Source: Marinobacter bohaiensis (GTDB lineage Bacteria; Pseudomonadota; Gammaproteobacteria; Pseudomonadales; Oleiphilaceae). From it: DNA of 64,000 bases. This document shows, in pieces, positions 57,513 to 64,000 of the stretch. The number at the start of each line of letters is the position of its first letter. Positions within the stretch are counted from its first letter, which is position 1. Location: positions 248,001-312,000 of the forward strand of contig NZ_QGEH01000004.1 of assembly GCF_003258515.1 (NCBI RefSeq), in the 5' to 3' direction. The notes under the pieces are model-generated. The model was not told the origin of the DNA and did not search any database. It saw only the letters and a list, made by a program, of their open reading frames with translations. Made by a program: the position numbers and the translations under genes.

Positions 57513-57588
57513 GCCGGGATAGCTCAGTCGGTAGAGCAGGGCATTCGTAATGCTCAGGTCGCAGGTTCGACTCCTGTTCCCGGCACCA
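57513..57588 (+). tRNA. tRNA-Thr (anticodon CGT)
   Basis: 76 bases including an encoded CCA. Acceptor GCCGGGA (57513-57519) pairs with TCCCGGC (57578-57584); D arm GCTC/GAGC; anticodon stem GGGCA/TGCTC around loop TTCGTAA, anticodon CGT; T arm GCAGG-TTCGACT-CCTG. All stems close. It lies between the DUF4397 gene and the M14-type gene, close to the integron array. Confidence 0.95.
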
Positions 57589-57669: not shown

Positions 57670-58593
57670 CTAACGGTGTTCCAGCGCGTAGTCGATCGCC
57701 GCACACACCGCAGCGGCCTGCGCCGCGTTGCATTGATCGGGCGTCACACGCGGGCTGTCGGGATAGACCTCGGTGGTGGTCTTGTGGAGCGCGGGGGTCA
57801 GGCCGGCGCACAGGCCCAGTTGCTTGAGTGGGTATTGGATCACGCCTCGTGCGGCCACCGCGGAACCAAAAATCTCGCCGCTGTCGTCGGCCGGCGCGAT
57901 ATGGGTGATCGGCTCCACCGCATCGATCACAGCCTGCTGGAATGCGGGATTCGGATTCGCGCTGTCATCGACCAGATAGAAGCCATCAGGAATCGCGCCC
58001 GGCTTGAAGGGCTTGCCGTCCCGGGCCGCCAGGGCGGGACGAAACTCGGATTCGTCGGTATCGGTGGTCTCGTGCAAGTCGATGTGCATCAGCACACGAT
58101 CACGGACGGGCGCCACCAGTTGCATGAGCGCCGCCGACTCTCCCGCCGGGCTGTCTTCGCGGAACGAGCGGTTGGGGTCGACCGCGTTCGCGTTCCAGCG
58201 GTGGATGCGCTCATAGGCCCAGGGGCTGACGCATGGGGCAACCAATAGGTTGACGCGCCCCGCGTAAGCCGCCGCATGCTGATCGACGAAGCGCAATGCG
58301 CCCTGCACGCCGCTGGTTTCATAACCGTGCACGCCGCCTGTGACCAGCATGACCGGCAGATCGTCACGCCAATCGCGACTCCGGATCGCCATCAGCGGGT
58401 ACTGATCGGCGCCATAGTCCAGGTGCCCGTACTCTTCCACGTCGAAGCGCGAACGCAGGCCCTCGATCACACTCAATACCTCGGATTCGTAGCTGCGCTG
58501 ACGGGTCTGTCGCGACAACCACTCGGCGCGTTCTGCCTCGCCCCAGGGCGTGCCGGGCGTACCGATGGGATAAGGCGTGGGGGCTGAGCTCAT
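57670..58593 (-). CDS. M14-family zinc carboxypeptidase/deacylase-like protein
   Basis: 307 residues. Zinc ligands of the M14/succinylglutamate-desuccinylase fold: GGVHGYET (HxxE) and HIDLHETTD, with a late Glu in TTEVYPDSP as the catalytic base. No signal peptide, so cytosolic. It is the last host-like gene before the low-G+C cassette array begins. Confidence 0.88.
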   Translation of the reverse strand: MSSAPTPYPIGTPGTPWGEAERAEWLSRQTRQRSYESEVLSVIEGLRSRFDVEEYGHLDYGADQYPLMAIRSRDWRDDLPVMLVTGGVHGYETSGVQGALRFVDQHAAAYAGRVNLLVAPCVSPWAYERIHRWNANAVDPNRSFREDSPAGESAALMQLVAPVRDRVLMHIDLHETTDTDESEFRPALAARDGKPFKPGAIPDGFYLVDDSANPNPAFQQAVIDAVEPITHIAPADDSGEIFGSAVAARGVIQYPLKQLGLCAGLTPALHKTTTEVYPDSPRVTPDQCNAAQAAAVCAAIDYALEHR

Positions 58594-58728
58594 AGGGTTT
58601 CTCTCCGGTGGGGGTCTGTGCGGGTGGGTATTCTAGGATCGACGATCACCGCTGGGAATAGGGGCTGACGTGGCGTTGATGCGGTTATCCAGGGCCGCCG
58701 GCAGAAAGTAGCGCTGTCCCAGCTTTCC

Positions 58729-58735
58729 GTTACGA
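58729..58735 (-). other. Left-end attC remnant
   Basis: GTTACGA on the plus strand (58729-58735) gives the first core of an attC site next to the last cassette gene; the matching second core was not found before the M14-type gene. It marks a degenerate or truncated array end. Confidence 0.4.
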
Positions 58736-59029
58736 TCACTCTTCAAGCTCATGCAGATGTCGGAGCCCTTCTTTCCTGAACCAATGCCCTGCAAAGAAAC
58801 CAATGATCAAAAACCCAATGATAAGCAACTGGGTAGACCCAGACAGAGCACCTAGAATCTCAAATATCGAGGAAAGATCGGTTTGATTGAGGAATACGAT
58901 TTCCAGAATCGCGGCCAGAGGCACGACCGTAAAGAGAAGGATGATGCTCTTAAATATCGACACGCCGACATCAATCAGCGTCCTACCAAATGCCTCTCTT
59001 GCCATCGGATTATAGTCATCTGGTTTCAT
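58736..59029 (-). CDS. Cassette 8: small two-TM membrane protein
   Basis: 97 residues, unrecognised. Two membrane segments (~25-47 and ~65-84). A basic and acidic C-tail (FRKEGLRHLHELEE) follows. AGGAGAATCC ahead of ATG 59029 is a good ribosome site. The start lies 14 bases from the crossover core of its attC neighbour. Last gene of the array in transcription order. Confidence 0.75.
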   Translation of the reverse strand: MKPDDYNPMAREAFGRTLIDVGVSIFKSIILLFTVVPLAAILEIVFLNQTDLSSIFEILGALSGSTQLLIIGFLIIGFFAGHWFRKEGLRHLHELEE

Positions 59030-59043
59030 GGATTCTCCTGCAC

Positions 59044-59142
59044 TCGTAACGTTCCTGTTCAGAGGTGCCCATGAAGCGTAGCAAAAAGGTCATCCGGCGG
59101 AGAGCCCTACAGTCCAGAACGAACTGGAACTATGGGTTAAAG
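59044..59142 (-). other. attC site G (cassettes 7|8)
   Basis: 99 bp. Cores GTTACGA (minus, 59044-59050) and GTTAAAG (plus, 59136-59142). Inner arms GTTCCTGTTC and GAACTGGAAC are complementary but for one position. Overlaps the stop of cassette gene 7. Confidence 0.6.
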
Positions 59143-59405
59143 ATCAGTGCGAGCAACGAGGCAACAGCCACAACCACCCACCACAGTCCATAAAGCTCTA
59201 GCAGCTTGGAAACAGCAGAATTGTTATAGCGTTCGTTACGTTGGGTAGCCTCATTCCAAAAGGTGCTGAAGTTCGTCCACGCCCAAAGTGGGCTGGCTTT
59301 CATCTCATAACCATGTTTGCGGAACTCAGCCCTAATTTGAACGGCCGTCACAACAGACCAAAGAGAGCACCCGATGAGGATTGTGATAAAGATATAGTCC
59401 GTCAT
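59130..59405 (-). CDS. Cassette 7: small two-TM membrane protein
   Basis: 91 residues, unrecognised. Membrane segments at ~3-21 and ~70-89, joined by a hydrophilic loop with KHGYEMKASPLWAWTNFSTFWNEA. CAAGGTAG precedes ATG 59405, right after the crossover core GTTAAAT. Stop overlaps its attC site. Confidence 0.75.
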   Translation of the reverse strand: MTDYIFITILIGCSLWSVVTAVQIRAEFRKHGYEMKASPLWAWTNFSTFWNEATQRNERYNNSAVSKLLELYGLWWVVVAVASLLALIFNP

Positions 59406-59413
59406 CTACCTTG

Positions 59414-59497
59414 ATTTAACGCGAAGCTAAGCGGCGTGCTTTAGTGCGTCCGGTGTAGGTCTAACGGACCGAAACGTACATGAGCGATTGGTTACAC
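59414..59497 (-). other. attC site F (cassettes 6|7)
   Basis: 84 bp, with ATTTAAC at 59414-59420 and GTTACAC at 59491-59497 and the TAAGCGGC/GCGTCCGG arm type also seen in site D. The end of cassette gene 6 is encoded inside it. Confidence 0.8.
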
Positions 59498-59918
59498 GGC
59501 TTTCAGCGATACGCACAAGGTCAAACATCCGTTCCCTTTGCACTAGCCATAGAGCTTCAAAAATATAGATGGGAGAGGAAATTAATGCCTGCACACTGAA
59601 TGGGAGCTGACCTATCCCTTTCAGCGGACCTAAAACAATAAGCAAGAGATAGACTGCAAAGACAGATAAAAAGAGAAGAAGCAACGCATAGGTTCGAACA
59701 ATGCTCAATGTGACACTGTGATGTCCCCGCGCACTGTCAATTAGCTTTCTTCTCGATCTCCACCGATTCACCCTCAAACGCGTACGAGATTTTTTCGAAA
59801 TGAGTGAAGCGAGGCCGATCAGGTACTCGCCAAGCGTAGAGAGACGCTTCGCAAACATAGCGCCCAAAACGGTAACAACGAGACTTACCAATACAGCTGG
59901 TTCAAACAGAACTTCCAT
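59427..59918 (-). CDS. Cassette 6: three-TM protein with attC-encoded C-terminus
   Basis: 163 residues, unrecognised. Membrane segments ~7-24, ~77-98 and ~108-125, with a basic loop (~42-60). The last ~22 residues (VTNRSCTFRSVRPTP...) are read from the attC site, a known route to fused tails in cassettes. Start at ATG 59918 with GGAAAAGGTGAAT; a TTG at 59954 would extend it into the upstream attC site. Confidence 0.7.
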   Translation of the reverse strand: MEVLFEPAVLVSLVVTVLGAMFAKRLSTLGEYLIGLASLISKKSRTRLRVNRWRSRRKLIDSARGHHSVTLSIVRTYALLLLFLSVFAVYLLLIVLGPLKGIGQLPFSVQALISSPIYIFEALWLVQRERMFDLVRIAESRVTNRSCTFRSVRPTPDALKHAA

Positions 59919-59942
59919 ATTCACCTTTTCCGATACCTGTAG

Positions 59943-60053
59943 CGCCTTGCTCAATTGCGCAGCGGTTGTAGTGGATTTTTGTGCGACAATGAGCGTAGCG
60001 AATGCACAAAAAGAAACGTAGACCTCTGCGTCAATTGGAGAAATTTGTTACAT
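59943..60053 (-). other. attC site E, degenerate (cassettes 5|6)
   Basis: 111 bp. Plus-strand GTTACAT at 60047-60053 is a fair core and overlaps the stop of gene 5; the other core is only GCCTTGC at 59943-59949. Arms CAATTGACGCAG and CTGCGCAATTG still match. It may be poorly recombined, freezing genes 5 and 6 together. Confidence 0.5.
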
Positions 60054-60953
60054 TTTTTTTCTAACGAACTCTCTATACTCTGACTTGCTTTTGTCATCAC
60101 TCAGAGCTTTTTCGAGCTTCATCAAATTGGCTTTTTCTAGCAACGCCACACCGTATTTTAGAATTTCTTCTGATTCCTTGATCTTTCGCTCGACTTCGGA
60201 TGACCAGCCGGACCAGTGCTTGAGTTCGGAATCGGACGCATCATCTAGGTTTAACTCTTCGATTGCCTTAAATCCCTCCTCCAAGTCTATGATTAGACGT
60301 TCACGCAAGTCATTTTCTTTGTAGAGAAAAGGCAGACCGCTTAAGTAATCAACTTTTTCTTCTATGTAGTACGGCCTAGGAAGACTTTTTCCTTGAATCG
60401 CCTCCAAATCTTCAACCTCTTGCTTGCTGGCGATCCTATCTTTAGTAATATCAGTATTCCTAGACCTCACCACCCTGGATAATATTTTGACAGCTTCTTC
60501 AGGGCATCCTGAGGTGTTTTTTAGCAGCAGGTTTGCTTTTCTATATACCGCATCTGCACCAAAAGGTCCGGATCTAAGCTTATTAACTGCTTCTTTGTGT
60601 TGGTCAATAAATATGAGAAAACTACCGATGATGTCTCGATATGTTTTTATTCTAATTTCTGTTTCTAGAGTTTTTGACAGTTCTTCAAATTCAACACCAA
60701 AGTGATTTCTCCCGCAGTTTCTACCAATGTTTGTTATCGGCCCCGTTTTTGTCGTAACTATATAACCCTTTCCATGAGGTGTATGACAGCTAGACAGTCC
60801 GCACTTTATATAGTCTTTGAAGATATAGCGCCCAATAATTTCCTTTAGCTCGTACTCTTTGGGATCTATATCTTTAGTGAAGCCAGGCAACTCCTCAATT
60901 TCTTGCCAAGTCTCAACTTTGATCAGCCCTCTTTCCGTGTTCAAGGTGATCAT
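60048..60953 (-). CDS. Cassette 5: 301-residue protein with Cys/His cluster
   Basis: Largest and most A+T-rich cassette gene. N-terminal half carries a Cys/His cluster, Cys51, Cys56, His57, His60 then Cys80 and His84 (CGLSSCHTPH ... IGRNCGRNHFG), which looks like a zinc site. C-terminal half is helical and charged. I recognise no named family, and no membrane segment. TTGAGGAAACC precedes the ATG. Codon use (AAA, AGA, ATT) differs from the flanking host genes, pointing to transfer. Confidence 0.8.
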   Translation of the reverse strand: MITLNTERGLIKVETWQEIEELPGFTKDIDPKEYELKEIIGRYIFKDYIKCGLSSCHTPHGKGYIVTTKTGPITNIGRNCGRNHFGVEFEELSKTLETEIRIKTYRDIIGSFLIFIDQHKEAVNKLRSGPFGADAVYRKANLLLKNTSGCPEEAVKILSRVVRSRNTDITKDRIASKQEVEDLEAIQGKSLPRPYYIEEKVDYLSGLPFLYKENDLRERLIIDLEEGFKAIEELNLDDASDSELKHWSGWSSEVERKIKESEEILKYGVALLEKANLMKLEKALSDDKSKSEYREFVRKKM

Positions 60954-60972
60954 AGGGTTTCCTCAATTTAAA

Positions 60973-61059
60973 ATGTAACGCCAGCCATAAGCGGCGCCCT
61001 GACAAGGGCGTCCGGTGGAGGGCCAAAGGCCCGGAACGACCTTAATGGCATTGTTAAAT
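60973..61059 (-). other. attC site D (cassettes 4|5)
   Basis: 87 bp, ATGTAAC at 60973-60979 and GTTAAAT at 61053-61059; arms AAGCGGCG...GGGCGTCCGG and GGCCAAAGGCCCGG give the folded middle. Confidence 0.75.
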
Positions 61060-61066
61060 GAATTAT

Positions 61067-61606
61067 TCACAGCAAGCCTGCAAGGGCGATGACGGTTGTA
61101 ACAGCAAAAGCTACGAAGCCCCAGAAGTATGGCCGTCGTTTGAATTCGTTGGATAAGAAGTTTTCTAACCGCTCGAATAAATTTTTAGGCGCCGGATTTT
61201 TCACCGGCATTTCAGAAATCCGTAATGCACAAATCATTGATGCCTGAGCGGGATCATGAATGCTACCAGTGTAAATGTGCCCGGCACTCGAGCCATCGTC
61301 GTTCATCTGTGTTGCGATAGGTCCTGAGGCGAACAAACCCGAGTATTGGCGTAATGCTTCATACCACCGTTCTTCTGGCGACAAAATACCCAGAACAGCC
61401 TCACTCAGTTCCTCAGGCTGTATCTCCGAAAGCTTGACGCCAGCCAATGAGCACAATTTTTCAAACTCTCTCAATTTTGGACTAACTGGAACACCGGCGA
61501 GTCGATAATAGGTGCCGGCAGCGCCCCATTGATAATCGATACGGACGAACCTAAGTGCCTCCTCACAAGCTTGAAATTCCTTTCGTAAATCTTGCCAGCT
61601 CAACAT
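61067..61606 (-). CDS. Cassette 4: tail-anchored-type protein
   Basis: 179 residues, unrecognised. Cytosolic-type domain of ~155 residues rich in Glu/Leu helices (KLREFEKLCSLAG, EELSEAVLGILSPEERWYEALRQYSGLFASG), then one membrane segment at ~161-178 right at the C-terminus (GFVAFAVTTVIALAGLL). Start at ATG 61606, 13 bases after the GTTAAAT core; longer frames cross the attC site and are rejected. Confidence 0.75.
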   Translation of the reverse strand: MLSWQDLRKEFQACEEALRFVRIDYQWGAAGTYYRLAGVPVSPKLREFEKLCSLAGVKLSEIQPEELSEAVLGILSPEERWYEALRQYSGLFASGPIATQMNDDGSSAGHIYTGSIHDPAQASMICALRISEMPVKNPAPKNLFERLENFLSNEFKRRPYFWGFVAFAVTTVIALAGLL

Positions 61607-61618
61607 GAAGCCATTTCC

Positions 61619-61702
61619 ATTTAACGCTTGCAGCATGCGCGCCCGCGAAATGGAGCCGAAGGCGCAATGTAGTGGGCGTCGCCGTGCCTGCACTGGTTAG
61701 GT
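61619..61702 (-). other. attC site C (cassettes 3|4)
   Basis: 84 bp with perfect cores ATTTAAC (61619-61625) and GTTAGGT (61696-61702); inner TTGCAGCATG...GTGCCTGCAC arms and GGCG...CGCC middle. Overlaps the stop of cassette gene 3. Confidence 0.82.
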
Positions 61703-62248
61703 CCTAGCATGCGACTGAATAATTCCGTTGCAGACGTAAAGGCAATTTCGAACAGTGCTATCAACTTTTTCGAAGAAGTCATCGTTGAGAACCTGCTCCT
61801 TATGCCCTCCACTGTAATACTGAAGCACATAGCCATCATGCTGATCATGGAGTACTTGTCCATGGGCAAATGCATTTCTCCACAACATTAGTTTGTTTAA
61901 GTCTGCCTTCAGGCTTTTAATCTTTTCGCGCCCCAACAACTTAAACTCTTCTAGGAGACGCGTGAAAACCCGACGTTTAAATGAGAATGAGAAGTCGGAG
62001 GTTCCCATGATCTCACTCACGAAGAAATCTCTGTAGTTGCGATTCTGGCCTGTCTCAGTAAAAAGGATCTTGCTGACCGCCTCAATAATTCGGTCCTCGA
62101 TCATCACCATCGCGGAAAGTATTTCAGTGCCATTTTTCTCTATTACAGCCATCTCATCGACCAAGCTTGAAGGCCGTCTTTGCAGCGGGTCTGGGCGATC
62201 AAGATCTAAGCGAAGAGTGATGGCCTTCGGGAATTTCAGCTCTTTCAT
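61697..62248 (-). CDS. Cassette 3: HEPN-like protein with R-x4-H motif
   Basis: 183 residues, soluble, helical. WRNAFAHG (Arg124, His129) is an R-x4-H motif of the kind found in HEPN RNases and related RNA-binding proteins. Long helices lie before it. No partner antitoxin of obvious type is in the same cassette. Start at ATG 62248, 4 bases after GTTAGGT. The fold is inferred from the motif and needs structure prediction. Confidence 0.7.
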   Translation of the reverse strand: MKELKFPKAITLRLDLDRPDPLQRRPSSLVDEMAVIEKNGTEILSAMVMIEDRIIEAVSKILFTETGQNRNYRDFFVSEIMGTSDFSFSFKRRVFTRLLEEFKLLGREKIKSLKADLNKLMLWRNAFAHGQVLHDQHDGYVLQYYSGGHKEQVLNDDFFEKVDSTVRNCLYVCNGIIQSHART

Positions 62249-62252
62249 ATAA

Positions 62253-62312
62253 ACCTAACGCCTGCAGCAGGGGCGCGACGTCAGGAGCGTCCCTTGCCTG
62301 CTTTGGTTAGGT
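62253..62312 (-). other. attC site B (cassettes 2|3)
   Basis: 60 bp with perfect cores ACCTAAC (62253-62259) and GTTAGGT (62306-62312), the shortest and cleanest site in the array; arms GCCTGCAGCAGGGGCG and CGTCCCTTGCCTGC. Confidence 0.88.
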
Positions 62313-62981
62313 AAACAGTTCAGGATCATCTTGAATGAGCTGCCTTCCAAGGTCACGTGCTGCTTCTTCCAAAGCTGTTAATGCTCGCAAAACTTGCTGG
62401 TAATAGTCAGAGTATCGATCTAGGTGAACAGCGTTGGGAATTGGTAACGGAACTCCCTGCGATCTCTGATCTGCAAGGTACTTCATGCCCTCAACCAACC
62501 ACTTTTGGAATTCCGCATGGGCGATTTGGAATTGTGCATGCACCTGATCAAATTCAGGAAAGTAGAGCTTTTGAAGCATAGTGGCGGTCGAGAATGCCGA
62601 TTTTTCGTAATCAACTTTCGAGTTGAAAAGTTTCTCATTCATTTCCCTTGATAAATTTTCCGACGCCTCGATTGCCTTAGCTACATAACATTCAAGTTTT
62701 TCACGGCGAAGGGTTTCAATAGCATGTCGCCTATTGAGAGTATGATCTAACTTACCCCGAATCGACTCAGTGATCTCTGTAGTGTCTTTCAACTGCTGTT
62801 TGATTAGATCAAAGTCCGCTGCAATCGCTTTGTGCTCGCCTCTCCTACCGAAATAAGAGCTGAGGAAAGCACCAACTGCGCCCGAGACCAGGGTGAGCAG
62901 GCCAATAGAGAGGAAATAAGGCCAAGAGCGACTCAGCGTCTCTGAAGATATGGCCGAAGCCAATGCCTGAATATCATCCAT
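62307..62981 (-). CDS. Cassette 2: single-TM coiled-coil protein
   Basis: 224 residues. One membrane segment (~21-43), the juxtamembrane motif SSYFGRRGEHKAIAADFD, and then a long coiled-coil-prone helix (~53-125). This SYxxxRGEHKAxxxDF pattern recurs in accessory genes of many bacteria, but I know no established function. ATG 62981 lies 10 bases after GTTAGGT. Confidence 0.75.
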   Translation of the reverse strand: MDDIQALASAISSETLSRSWPYFLSIGLLTLVSGAVGAFLSSYFGRRGEHKAIAADFDLIKQQLKDTTEITESIRGKLDHTLNRRHAIETLRREKLECYVAKAIEASENLSREMNEKLFNSKVDYEKSAFSTATMLQKLYFPEFDQVHAQFQIAHAEFQKWLVEGMKYLADQRSQGVPLPIPNAVHLDRYSDYYQQVLRALTALEEAARDLGRQLIQDDPELFT

Positions 62982-62991
62982 GTGTATTCTT

Positions 62992-63075
62992 ACCTAACGC
63001 CCGCAGCAACCGCAGCTTTGTAGTGGAGCCGCAGGCGCAACGGAAAAGCTGTCGGATTGCCTGCGATTGTTAGGG
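62992..63075 (-). other. attC site A (cassettes 1|2)
   Basis: 84 bp with ACCTAAC (62992-62998) and GTTAGGG (63069-63075; last base off consensus); inner CGCAGC...AGCTTT and AAAGCT arms pair. Follows the stop of cassette gene 1. Confidence 0.82.
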
Positions 63076-63087
63076 CGTGACTTAGCG

Positions 63088-63588
63088 CTACCCACCTTTA
63101 ATTGCCGCTCCGACAAATACACCAACCAATGAGGACAACACGCCGATGACCACCGGCACCCACCATCGAAGCTCCTTACGACGAACAACTGCTTGAGTTT
63201 GTAGCTTCACTGCTACATCTATTAATGCAAGGATTTGTTCGGAGGACAGAGGCAAACGGGAGATATGAGACCTATTGTCTTTCGGCAATGCCTTGAATTG
63301 CTCTACCGTAATTACTTCTTCAGTCTGTGTGTTATAAACTCTAGGTTGAGCGCGCCGAACGACTAGTGACTGAAAATCGTCATCGCCTATACCGGCCCGA
63401 AAAAATTCGGGATGCTCATTAAAAATGGATTGCCAGTCATTCGCGCTCTTTGGCTTTTCGCCGAGCAAATTAGCCCATGACTCTACCTTGCGTCCCGAAT
63501 ACCTATATGTACCCATTACCTGGATTGCAGCGATTACATCAGCAAGCCTATGTTGATGAGCAAGGTAAGGGGATTGTTTCTCAATCAT
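63088..63588 (-). CDS. Cassette 1: C-terminally anchored accessory protein
   Basis: 166 residues. The soluble N-terminus contains LADVIAAIQVMGTYRYSGRKVESW and the EHPEFFR motif (~58-64); a membrane segment (~143-163) ends the protein. Start at ATG 63588. I have seen similar EHPEFFR membrane proteins in other accessory regions, but no function is assigned. First gene of the array in transcription order, so probably the best expressed. Confidence 0.75.
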   Translation of the reverse strand: MIEKQSPYLAHQHRLADVIAAIQVMGTYRYSGRKVESWANLLGEKPKSANDWQSIFNEHPEFFRAGIGDDDFQSLVVRRAQPRVYNTQTEEVITVEQFKALPKDNRSHISRLPLSSEQILALIDVAVKLQTQAVVRRKELRWWVPVVIGVLSSLVGVFVGAAIKGG

Positions 63589-63606
63589 GACTTGTCCTGT
63601 TGTGAG

Positions 63607-63700
63607 CCCTAACAGCAATTAGACCGCGTTCCGCGATATCGAATAACCGTGCGTTCTCGATAATGTCGCCCTACGGGCGGTTTCGGAACGGCCGTTAATC
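63607..63700 (-). other. Right-hand attC- or attI-like site
   Basis: 94 bp. Cores GTTAGGG (minus, 63607-63613) and GTTAATC (plus, 63694-63700; near-consensus). Arms GTTCCG (63628-63633) and CGGAAC (63684-63689) pair. It either ends an earlier cassette or is the attI site. Confidence 0.55.
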
Positions 63701-63801
63701 CCATTTAAACAACACCTTAGCGTCTCGTCGCTAACAGCGCCATGTATTCGTTTGACGTCTTCTTTTCGTGTTTTCAATATAACTGTATAAAAACAGGCCA
63801 T
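63619..63801 (-). CDS. Possible small cassette gene, doubtful
   Basis: 60 codons from ATG 63801 (MACFYTVILKTRKEDVKRIH...). Its C-terminal part is read inside the attC-like site, as in cassette 6. No clear ribosome site and no boundary core upstream. Could be chance. Confidence 0.25.
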   Translation of the reverse strand: MACFYTVILKTRKEDVKRIHGAVSDETLRCCLNGINGRSETARRATLSRTHGYSISRNAV

Positions 63802-63856: not shown

Positions 63857-64000
63857 TCAACTTTCCGATTCAATCCGCCGCCCCCACCGCCCACGGACGC
63901 GCTCCATCAGCCGGTCGACCACCGCGCCAACGGCTTGTTTTGACGAGCCCGAGAACATCGTGCGCCCGGTAGCTGTCGCGGCCGTGGAAATAGCGCTTTG
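63857..64000 (-). CDS. Possible 3' end of an unknown gene
   Basis: The minus-strand frame is open from the window end to TGA at 63857-63859 (47 residues, FSGSSKQAVGAVVDRLMERVRGRWGRR...). It matches no integrase or other family I know. An overlapping frame (stop at 63870) also stays open to the edge, so assignment is weak. G+C-rich, unlike the cassettes. Confidence 0.25.
   Translation of the reverse strand, partial: QSAISTAATATGRTMFSGSSKQAVGAVVDRLMERVRGRWGRRIESES

Follow-up and report, generated by a model that had tools for sequence, protein, structure and literature searches.

We describe an integron cassette array in Marinobacter bohaiensis (NCBI RefSeq assembly GCF_003258515.1) that lies within a 64,000-nt stretch of contig NZ_QGEH01000004.1 (forward-strand positions 248,001-312,000; hereafter the window, situated on contig C4 of our numbering). 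The array carries no adjoining integron integrase gene (intI), but is headed by a module of an attI site and an inferred cassette promoter (Pc), of which seven copies are present in the genome. We read it as an integrase-less integron platform and put at roughly 0.7 the probability that it is one, and that a single integrase, encoded on another contig, serves or recently served all seven Pc-attI platforms in trans.

On direct reading, seven minus-strand attC sites partition eight minus-strand open reading frames (ORFs) in window positions 58727-63612 (Table 1), as a preliminary description of this DNA had claimed. An eighth attC is truncated, and direct reading reveals its R'' box alone, ATCGTAACGG, at 58727-58736. 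All eight ORFs have a putative in-frame ATG 10-25 nt past the crossover point, within the 4-28 bases given in that description. The search with a covariance model that it had proposed also speaks for the array: model R3, whose training set of 42 attC matches came entirely from other loci and not from the window, recovers six of the seven sites, five of them at E<1e-3. The R3 training alignment was built with an earlier model, R1, which leaves a small leak, and because R1 was trained on attC sites of the window and of contig C5, its own matches in the window are not independent. Two stray weak R3 matches (E 0.19 and 0.38) fall elsewhere in the window.

Once circular, a cassette must pair its initial bases, GTTxxxxx, with its own R'' box. 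With R'' and start boxes chosen by hand, 35 of the 40 variable positions in the window are complementary when each cassette is closed on itself, as against 18 of 35 when it is paired to the next cassette, and one of 40,320 permutations reached the observed score. Seven cassettes of the C5 array give 31/35 positions (one of 5,040 permutations). At loci outside the window and C5, 134 of 200 positions agree, compared with 80 of 200 for the next cassette, and none of 20,000 shuffles reached 134 (maximum 117); 15 of 40 cassettes close there at 5/5, closure being incomplete partly because undetected attC break the chain.

Cassettes of the array also recur singly in other genomes, with the following among the matches listed (more may exist). 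The G030 counterpart of cassette 6 (Table 1) starts with GTTACACG, as its R'' box predicts, the window copy having drifted to GCTACAGG. Cassette 2 has a 94% match in G053 over 63028-62256, which takes in the cassette and, before it, 31 nt of attC 1; cassette 7 has an 84% match in M. mangrovi (G003), covering 59422-59047; cassette 3 is 84% identical in G151 over 62260-61676, the match stopping 51 nt short with a different attC there; and the opening 180 nt of cassette 4 are 93% identical in G138. The matches to cassettes 2, 3, 6 and 7 start and end at, or no more than about 50 nt from, cassette boundaries, and those to 6 and 7 coincide with the cassette.

A module of about 200 bp (63611-63796) comprising the putative Pc and attI stands at the head of the array and was overlooked in the preliminary description. 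Over 216 nt it shares 85% identity with the intI-attI leader of a complete integron carried by C5. The window attI is the sole match in the window, at E<=0.01, to R2, a sequence model of 22 attI, and cassette 1 closes on the attI junction at 5/5. The array begins at this attI and not at an attG, which would be of neither attI nor attC type. Nor does this attI replace an attC after a cassette ORF, as in the Delta-attI type: the module comes after a DUF6559 gene, which shares the reading direction of the cassettes and is present in one of six genus genomes, namely this one. The Pc hexamers are predicted from sequence. Towards higher coordinates from the module, L008 and L009 gave a single attC match, a lone strong site where the contig ends (L009 19672-19753 = C4:345672-345753; R3 E 2.9e-11). 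Cassette arrays seem to break this assembly; the platforms on C3 and C7 run into contig ends as well.

Table 1 Features of the integrase-less array and its flanks in the M. bohaiensis window
Feature	Position in window	Strand	Evidence or remark
DUF6559 gene, 3' part, left-hand neighbour	63870-64000, runs past window (L008 5870-6259)	-	PF20196, 102 bits
Decayed LexA-type box CTGTTTTTATACAG	63783-63796	-	direct reading; 2 bp shorter than intact box of intI-linked copy
Inferred Pc -35 hexamer ATGGCG	63738-63743	-	part of a block that is conserved across 33 modules without the intI-linked label
Inferred Pc -10 hexamer TAAGGT	63714-63719	-	18 bp spacing: ATGGCG-18-TAAGGT
attI	63611-63667	-	R2 62 bits (one of the 22 R2 training sequences); crossover between G 63613 and T 63612
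Cassette 1	62998-63612; ORF 63088-63588, 166 aa	-	start GTTAGGGC complementary to R'' GCCCTAAC, 5/5
attC 1	62992-63076	-	R3 E 2.3e-11
Cassette 2	62259-62997; ORF 62307-62981, 224 aa	-	closure 5/5
attC 2	62253-62312	-	R3 E 3.1e-9; 91% identity to an attC of the C5 integron
Cassette 3	61625-62258; ORF 61697-62248, 183 aa	-	closure 4/5
attC 3	61619-61702	-	R3 E 8.2e-16
Cassette 4	60979-61624; ORF 61067-61606, 179 aa	-	closure 5/5
attC 4	60973-61059	-	R3 E 3.2e-9
Cassette 5	59943-60978; ORF 60048-60953, 301 aa	-	closure 5/5; phrog_7003 E 1.1e-59
attC 5	59935-60053	-	R3 E 5.7e-4; degenerate R' box, GCTACAG
Cassette 6	59420-59942; ORF 59427-59918, 163 aa	-	G030 (another genus) has a copy, 90% identical over 524 nt, as first cassette directly at an attI without intI
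attC 6	59414-59497	-	closure 4/5; no R3 match at E<=1; present in G030 copy too
Cassette 7	59050-59419; ORF 59130-59405, 91 aa	-	closure 3/5; weak phrog_5054 match E 8e-4
attC 7	59044-59142	-	R3 E 0.037; R'' overlaps ORF end
Cassette 8	58727-59049; ORF 58736-59029, 97 aa	-	closure 4/5
AstE/AspA, M14-like host gene, right flank	57670-58593	-	PF24827, 27.3 bits (cut-off 25)

By tblastn (E<=1e-3) no intI was found in the window, in agreement with the preliminary description, nor onward on the contig up to base 346000 of 346318, and none of the matches listed on C4 is to TIGR02249. The description had supposed the integrase to be either to the right or absent; up to that base none was found to the right, and a third case applies, an intI elsewhere in the genome. 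An integrase on C5 scores 397 bits against TIGR02249 (cut-off 265), is the sole above-cut-off match in this genome and belongs to a complete integron with a LexA box at its intI-linked module.

The leader of this integron has seven copies in the genome, on C4 (the window), C5, C1 (three, C1a to C1c), C3 and C7. By BLAST the copies on C4 and C5 and two on C1 extend over at least about 184 nt and those on C7, C3 and the remaining one on C1 over the last 53-58 nt, but with a profile built from intI-linked leaders the match reaches further upstream in all seven. One of the seven, that on C5, adjoins intI, and for the other six no intI was detected by tblastn (E<=1e-3) in the window, L008 and L020-L024. 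All seven have downstream attC matches on the same strand, supported by R1 for C4, C5, C1a and C1c and by R3 for C3 and C7; at C1b the R1 match is weak (E 0.19) and R3 finds three sites, including one from its training set. Compared with the intI-linked copy, the module of C1a is 95% and that of C4 90% identical. The copies from C5, C1a, C4 and C1b form one group and three copies of M. mobilis another, so that modules multiply, or are homogenised, within genomes.

Cassette content differs between relatives at orthologous loci. The gene to the left of C1b is 95% identical in M. halodurans (G002), the attI end lies 246 and 244 bp past its stop in the two genomes, and the right flank is syntenic, yet between the flanks no ORF of at least 70 aa is common to both. 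Other genes follow the same left gene in two further congeners, where no module was seen. The host gene on the right flank of the window array has orthologues in four of five congeners, and these four have other cassettes or no detected attC beside it. In Marinobacter sp. BGYM27 (G005) seven attC matches, five of them at E<=1.1e-4, accompany the host gene, with cassettes differing from those of the window, and at the head of the array stands a decayed Pc-attI module (profile match E 2.4e-21 in a 420-base target; first-cassette closure 5/5). The call of this module rests on profile and closure, because its best identity to others, 0.69, hardly exceeds the maximum for shuffled modules, 0.66 against 10 of the modules. 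G004 has one attC match there (E 0.0094) and another recognised by eye, and at E<=1 R3 gave no match in L084 (M. halodurans) or L085 (M. mangrovi). The same genes in fixed order in related genomes, which the preliminary description had named as an observation speaking against mobile cassettes, were thus not seen.

An exact attI pattern was found in 16 stretches of the named genome collection, 12 of them in Marinobacter (four in M. mobilis and two in BGYM27), two in Pseudomonas cuatrocienegasensis and one each in Stutzerimonas urumqiensis and Methylonatrum kenyense. At E<=1e-3, R2 yields 77 attI sites in 42 of 163 family genomes, with two or more sites in 18 genomes; the 77 include 18 training sites and, from contig ends of G049, two 50-nt pieces. 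Of 390 genomes drawn from the whole order, 10 had an R2 match, three of these outside the family. Sixteen of the 77 sites lie within 1.5 kb of an intI and 61 do not (12 and 36, respectively, for the 48 strongest sites), as judged against 37 places among the matches listed and with remnants such as those in L092 and L097 counted as no intI. Of 30 loci that were opened, 19 are free of intI traces (E<=1e-5) over a distance of about 1.5 kb, and an attC match (E<=1) occurs within that distance at 15 of these 19 and at 8 of the 11 others, one of which, L093, has as its sole trace an integrase-like ORF of 35% identity on the cassette side of attI. All R1 attC matches (E<=1) are downstream of attI and on its strand, 29 of 29 in the 30 loci and 58 of 58 in longer loci, two overlapping sets, with training sites making up 12 of the 58; three further attC matches lie in L083, where R2 detects no attI.

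Two blocks are conserved in the 33 modules without the intI-linked label, of which two hold intI remnants: the putative Pc -35/-10 region and the last 56 nt or so, which constitute attI. About 55 nt between the two blocks vary. A LexA box (CTGT-N8-ACAG, allowing one mismatch) is present in 13 of 13 modules beside an intI, whether full or damaged, compared with 7 of 31 others, so that orphan modules tend to keep the promoter-like block and attI while the LexA box decays. For 28 of 31 modules without an adjoining intI, the profile match starts between the inferred intI start and the integrase promoter (Pint) region (positions 127-182 of the hidden Markov model, HMM).

Some further observations were made on these loci. 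In M. mobilis several modules lie 3-11 kb apart, and its attI modules share an extra left flank (L126 10250-10310; L127 3810-4000 and 6630-6800), as if a longer unit had been copied. On M. mangrovi contig C9 (L026, minus strand) the attI end of the module abuts a long microsatellite of TTTGC units. In Marinobacter sp. ELB17 (L040 6911-7690 = L093 598-1377) attI is directly followed by an ORF 35% identical to the M. bohaiensis IntI. A 523-aa protein common to two G116 platforms was considered as a case of cassette sharing and rejected, being a DDE transposase that has 90% identity to another next to the G004 array; DDE transposases of 523 aa occur in or beside several arrays (L082 6852-8423 and 9504-11075; L129 5861-7432).

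In the mechanism we propose, a platform would consist, in order, of Pc, attI, the cassettes (eight in the window) and host DNA, and an integron integrase would have inserted the cassettes at the G|TT of attI, as the precise attI junction, self-closure and single-cassette sharing indirectly show. The C5 integrase would act, or would recently have acted, in trans on the seven platforms, the window attI included, since the sole above-cut-off integron integrase sits on another contig. Each platform would transcribe its first cassettes from its own Pc, and the C5 integrase would be under SOS control via the LexA box of C5. Loss of the LexA box with retention of Pc and attI is as expected if orphan modules are kept for use without a local integrase. 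We lean slightly towards a still wider statement, that of a decentralised integron in many members of the family, in which one SOS-controlled integrase serves dispersed Pc-attI platforms in trans, each expressing its first cassettes, and in which the platforms multiply within genomes, are selected without a local integrase and have gone unseen because the standard tool ignores attI outside class 1.

Other explanations of the array were weighed. One is that the ORFs are host genes with inverted repeats that arose by chance. Relative to shuffles, attC 1 to 7 give z values of -2.74, -1.31, 0.05, -2.05, -2.69, 1.31 and 0.22, so that attC 3, 6 and 7 fold no better than shuffled sequence, which counts against the reality of the array, and RNAalifold over a plain MAFFT alignment of the attC gave no useful structure. 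A crude scan of arm-pairing energy, not used as evidence on account of its weak discrimination, came out weakly above shuffles (at the loosest threshold, -7, seven matches in the array, five of them true sites, vs 2.9 on average and at most 6 in shuffles; at -10, three matches vs 0.2 on average and at most 1). The closure statistics, the R3 matches obtained without window training and the singly shared cassettes refute such a chance origin, the likelihood of which we regard as negligible, and the array is confirmed as a genuine row of eight mobile gene cassettes. Hardly more probable is an ordinary cluster of attC sites lacking integron integrases (CALIN), with cassettes inserted at a non-attI chromosomal site (attG). 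CALINs are common and insertion at attG is reported (PMC12444791), but this array is headed by a conserved 58-nt attI and a promoter-like block, which together are a paralogue of the intI-linked leader and already contradict that origin here.

A more serious competitor, though in our judgement an unlikely one, holds that the orphan platforms are fossils, i.e. complete integrons after intI loss whose cassettes were loaded earlier and whose arrays are now static. The last attC of the window is truncated and some attC are decayed, intI or its remains adjoin attI in L092, L097 and L103, and module alignments pass the inferred intI start in L091, L092, L093 and L107, from which it follows that some orphans are former complete integrons. 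Difficult to reconcile with fossils are the Pc and attI blocks, which stay conserved where intI is absent and the LexA box decays, the identity of C1a and C4 to the linked copy, which makes several orphans recent, and the different cassettes at orthologous orphan platforms. The intI remains and overreaching alignments weigh against the reading we prefer, that of one integrase serving seven platforms in trans, and so do several other observations. The exact Pc pattern is missing from some modules, and at the window locus of BGYM27 the attI core is decayed beyond R2 detection and the left-hand neighbour is unlike that of the window. M. mobilis, with orphan attI, has no cognate integrase at E<=1e-20, and the integrases of M. 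halodurans and M. mangrovi are only 45-47% identical to that of M. bohaiensis, so that the difference between C1b and its M. halodurans counterpart is no proof of in-trans action by this integrase type. Platforms in genomes without a cognate integrase may be fossils or may be served by another IntI, and homologous recombination via the flanks, replacing whole arrays, could also change the cassettes.

The preliminary description recognised no named function in the eight genes, and this largely stands. None of the cassette proteins has a Pfam or NCBIfam match above cut-off, PADLOC gave weak matches only (best E 0.0068), and cassette 5 belongs to a phage family, phrog_7003, of unknown function. 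Its relatives were sought in viral contigs, where 23 stretches matched a pattern and none was confirmed. The cassette 3 protein has a sub-threshold Pfam match to HEPN_RiboL-PSP (E 8e-4) and on direct reading contains RNAFAHG, in which RNAFAH is a motif of the R-X4-H kind that we take to resemble that of HEPN proteins. Among solved structures at E<=1 there was no match for cassette 3 and one weak match for cassette 5 (E 0.047). At one M. mobilis platform, the first cassette matches the cassette 3 protein with 33% identity over 142 aa. The attC 3 type (window 61622-61710) shows up to 99% identity across the family and about 90% to stretches of Providencia plasmids, and 203 plasmid records match some portion of the array. 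A tRNA-Thr(CGT) gene lies at window 57513-57588, directly left, in window coordinates, of the AstE/AspA host gene adjoining the array.

If the proposed reading is true, seven attI platforms together with one intact integrase would allow several first cassettes to be expressed simultaneously, and some of the CALINs considered degraded may be active capture sites. PMC9024848 describes integrons as typically having one attI near the integrase, presents CALINs as proposed degraded integrons and gives IntegronFinder 2 as having no attI detection outside class 1. A literature search, with most subscription papers outside its scope, turned up no account of a chromosome with many orphan attI platforms.

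The window array resembles a complete chromosomal integron in its attI, promoter-like block, G|TT junction and attC-bounded cassettes, and differs from it in that no intI adjoins. By definition (two or more attC without a neighbouring intI) it is a CALIN, as the preliminary description suggested, but not a bare one, since it possesses a conserved attI and a promoter-like block at its head and is one of six such arrays in the genome. The closest precedent found is a prophage of Shewanella sp., in which attI heads an integrase-less array and a complete integron is present in the same genome (PMC9892861). That is one prophage case, as against seven platforms in one genome and 77 sites in 42 of 163 family genomes here, and the attI sequence is different. 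Cassettes of the Delta-attI type likewise carry an attI copy away from intI that is usable by IntI, according to PMC12901181; in that type a shortened attI replaces the attC at the cassette end, whereas here a Pc-attI module heads the array right after a host gene.

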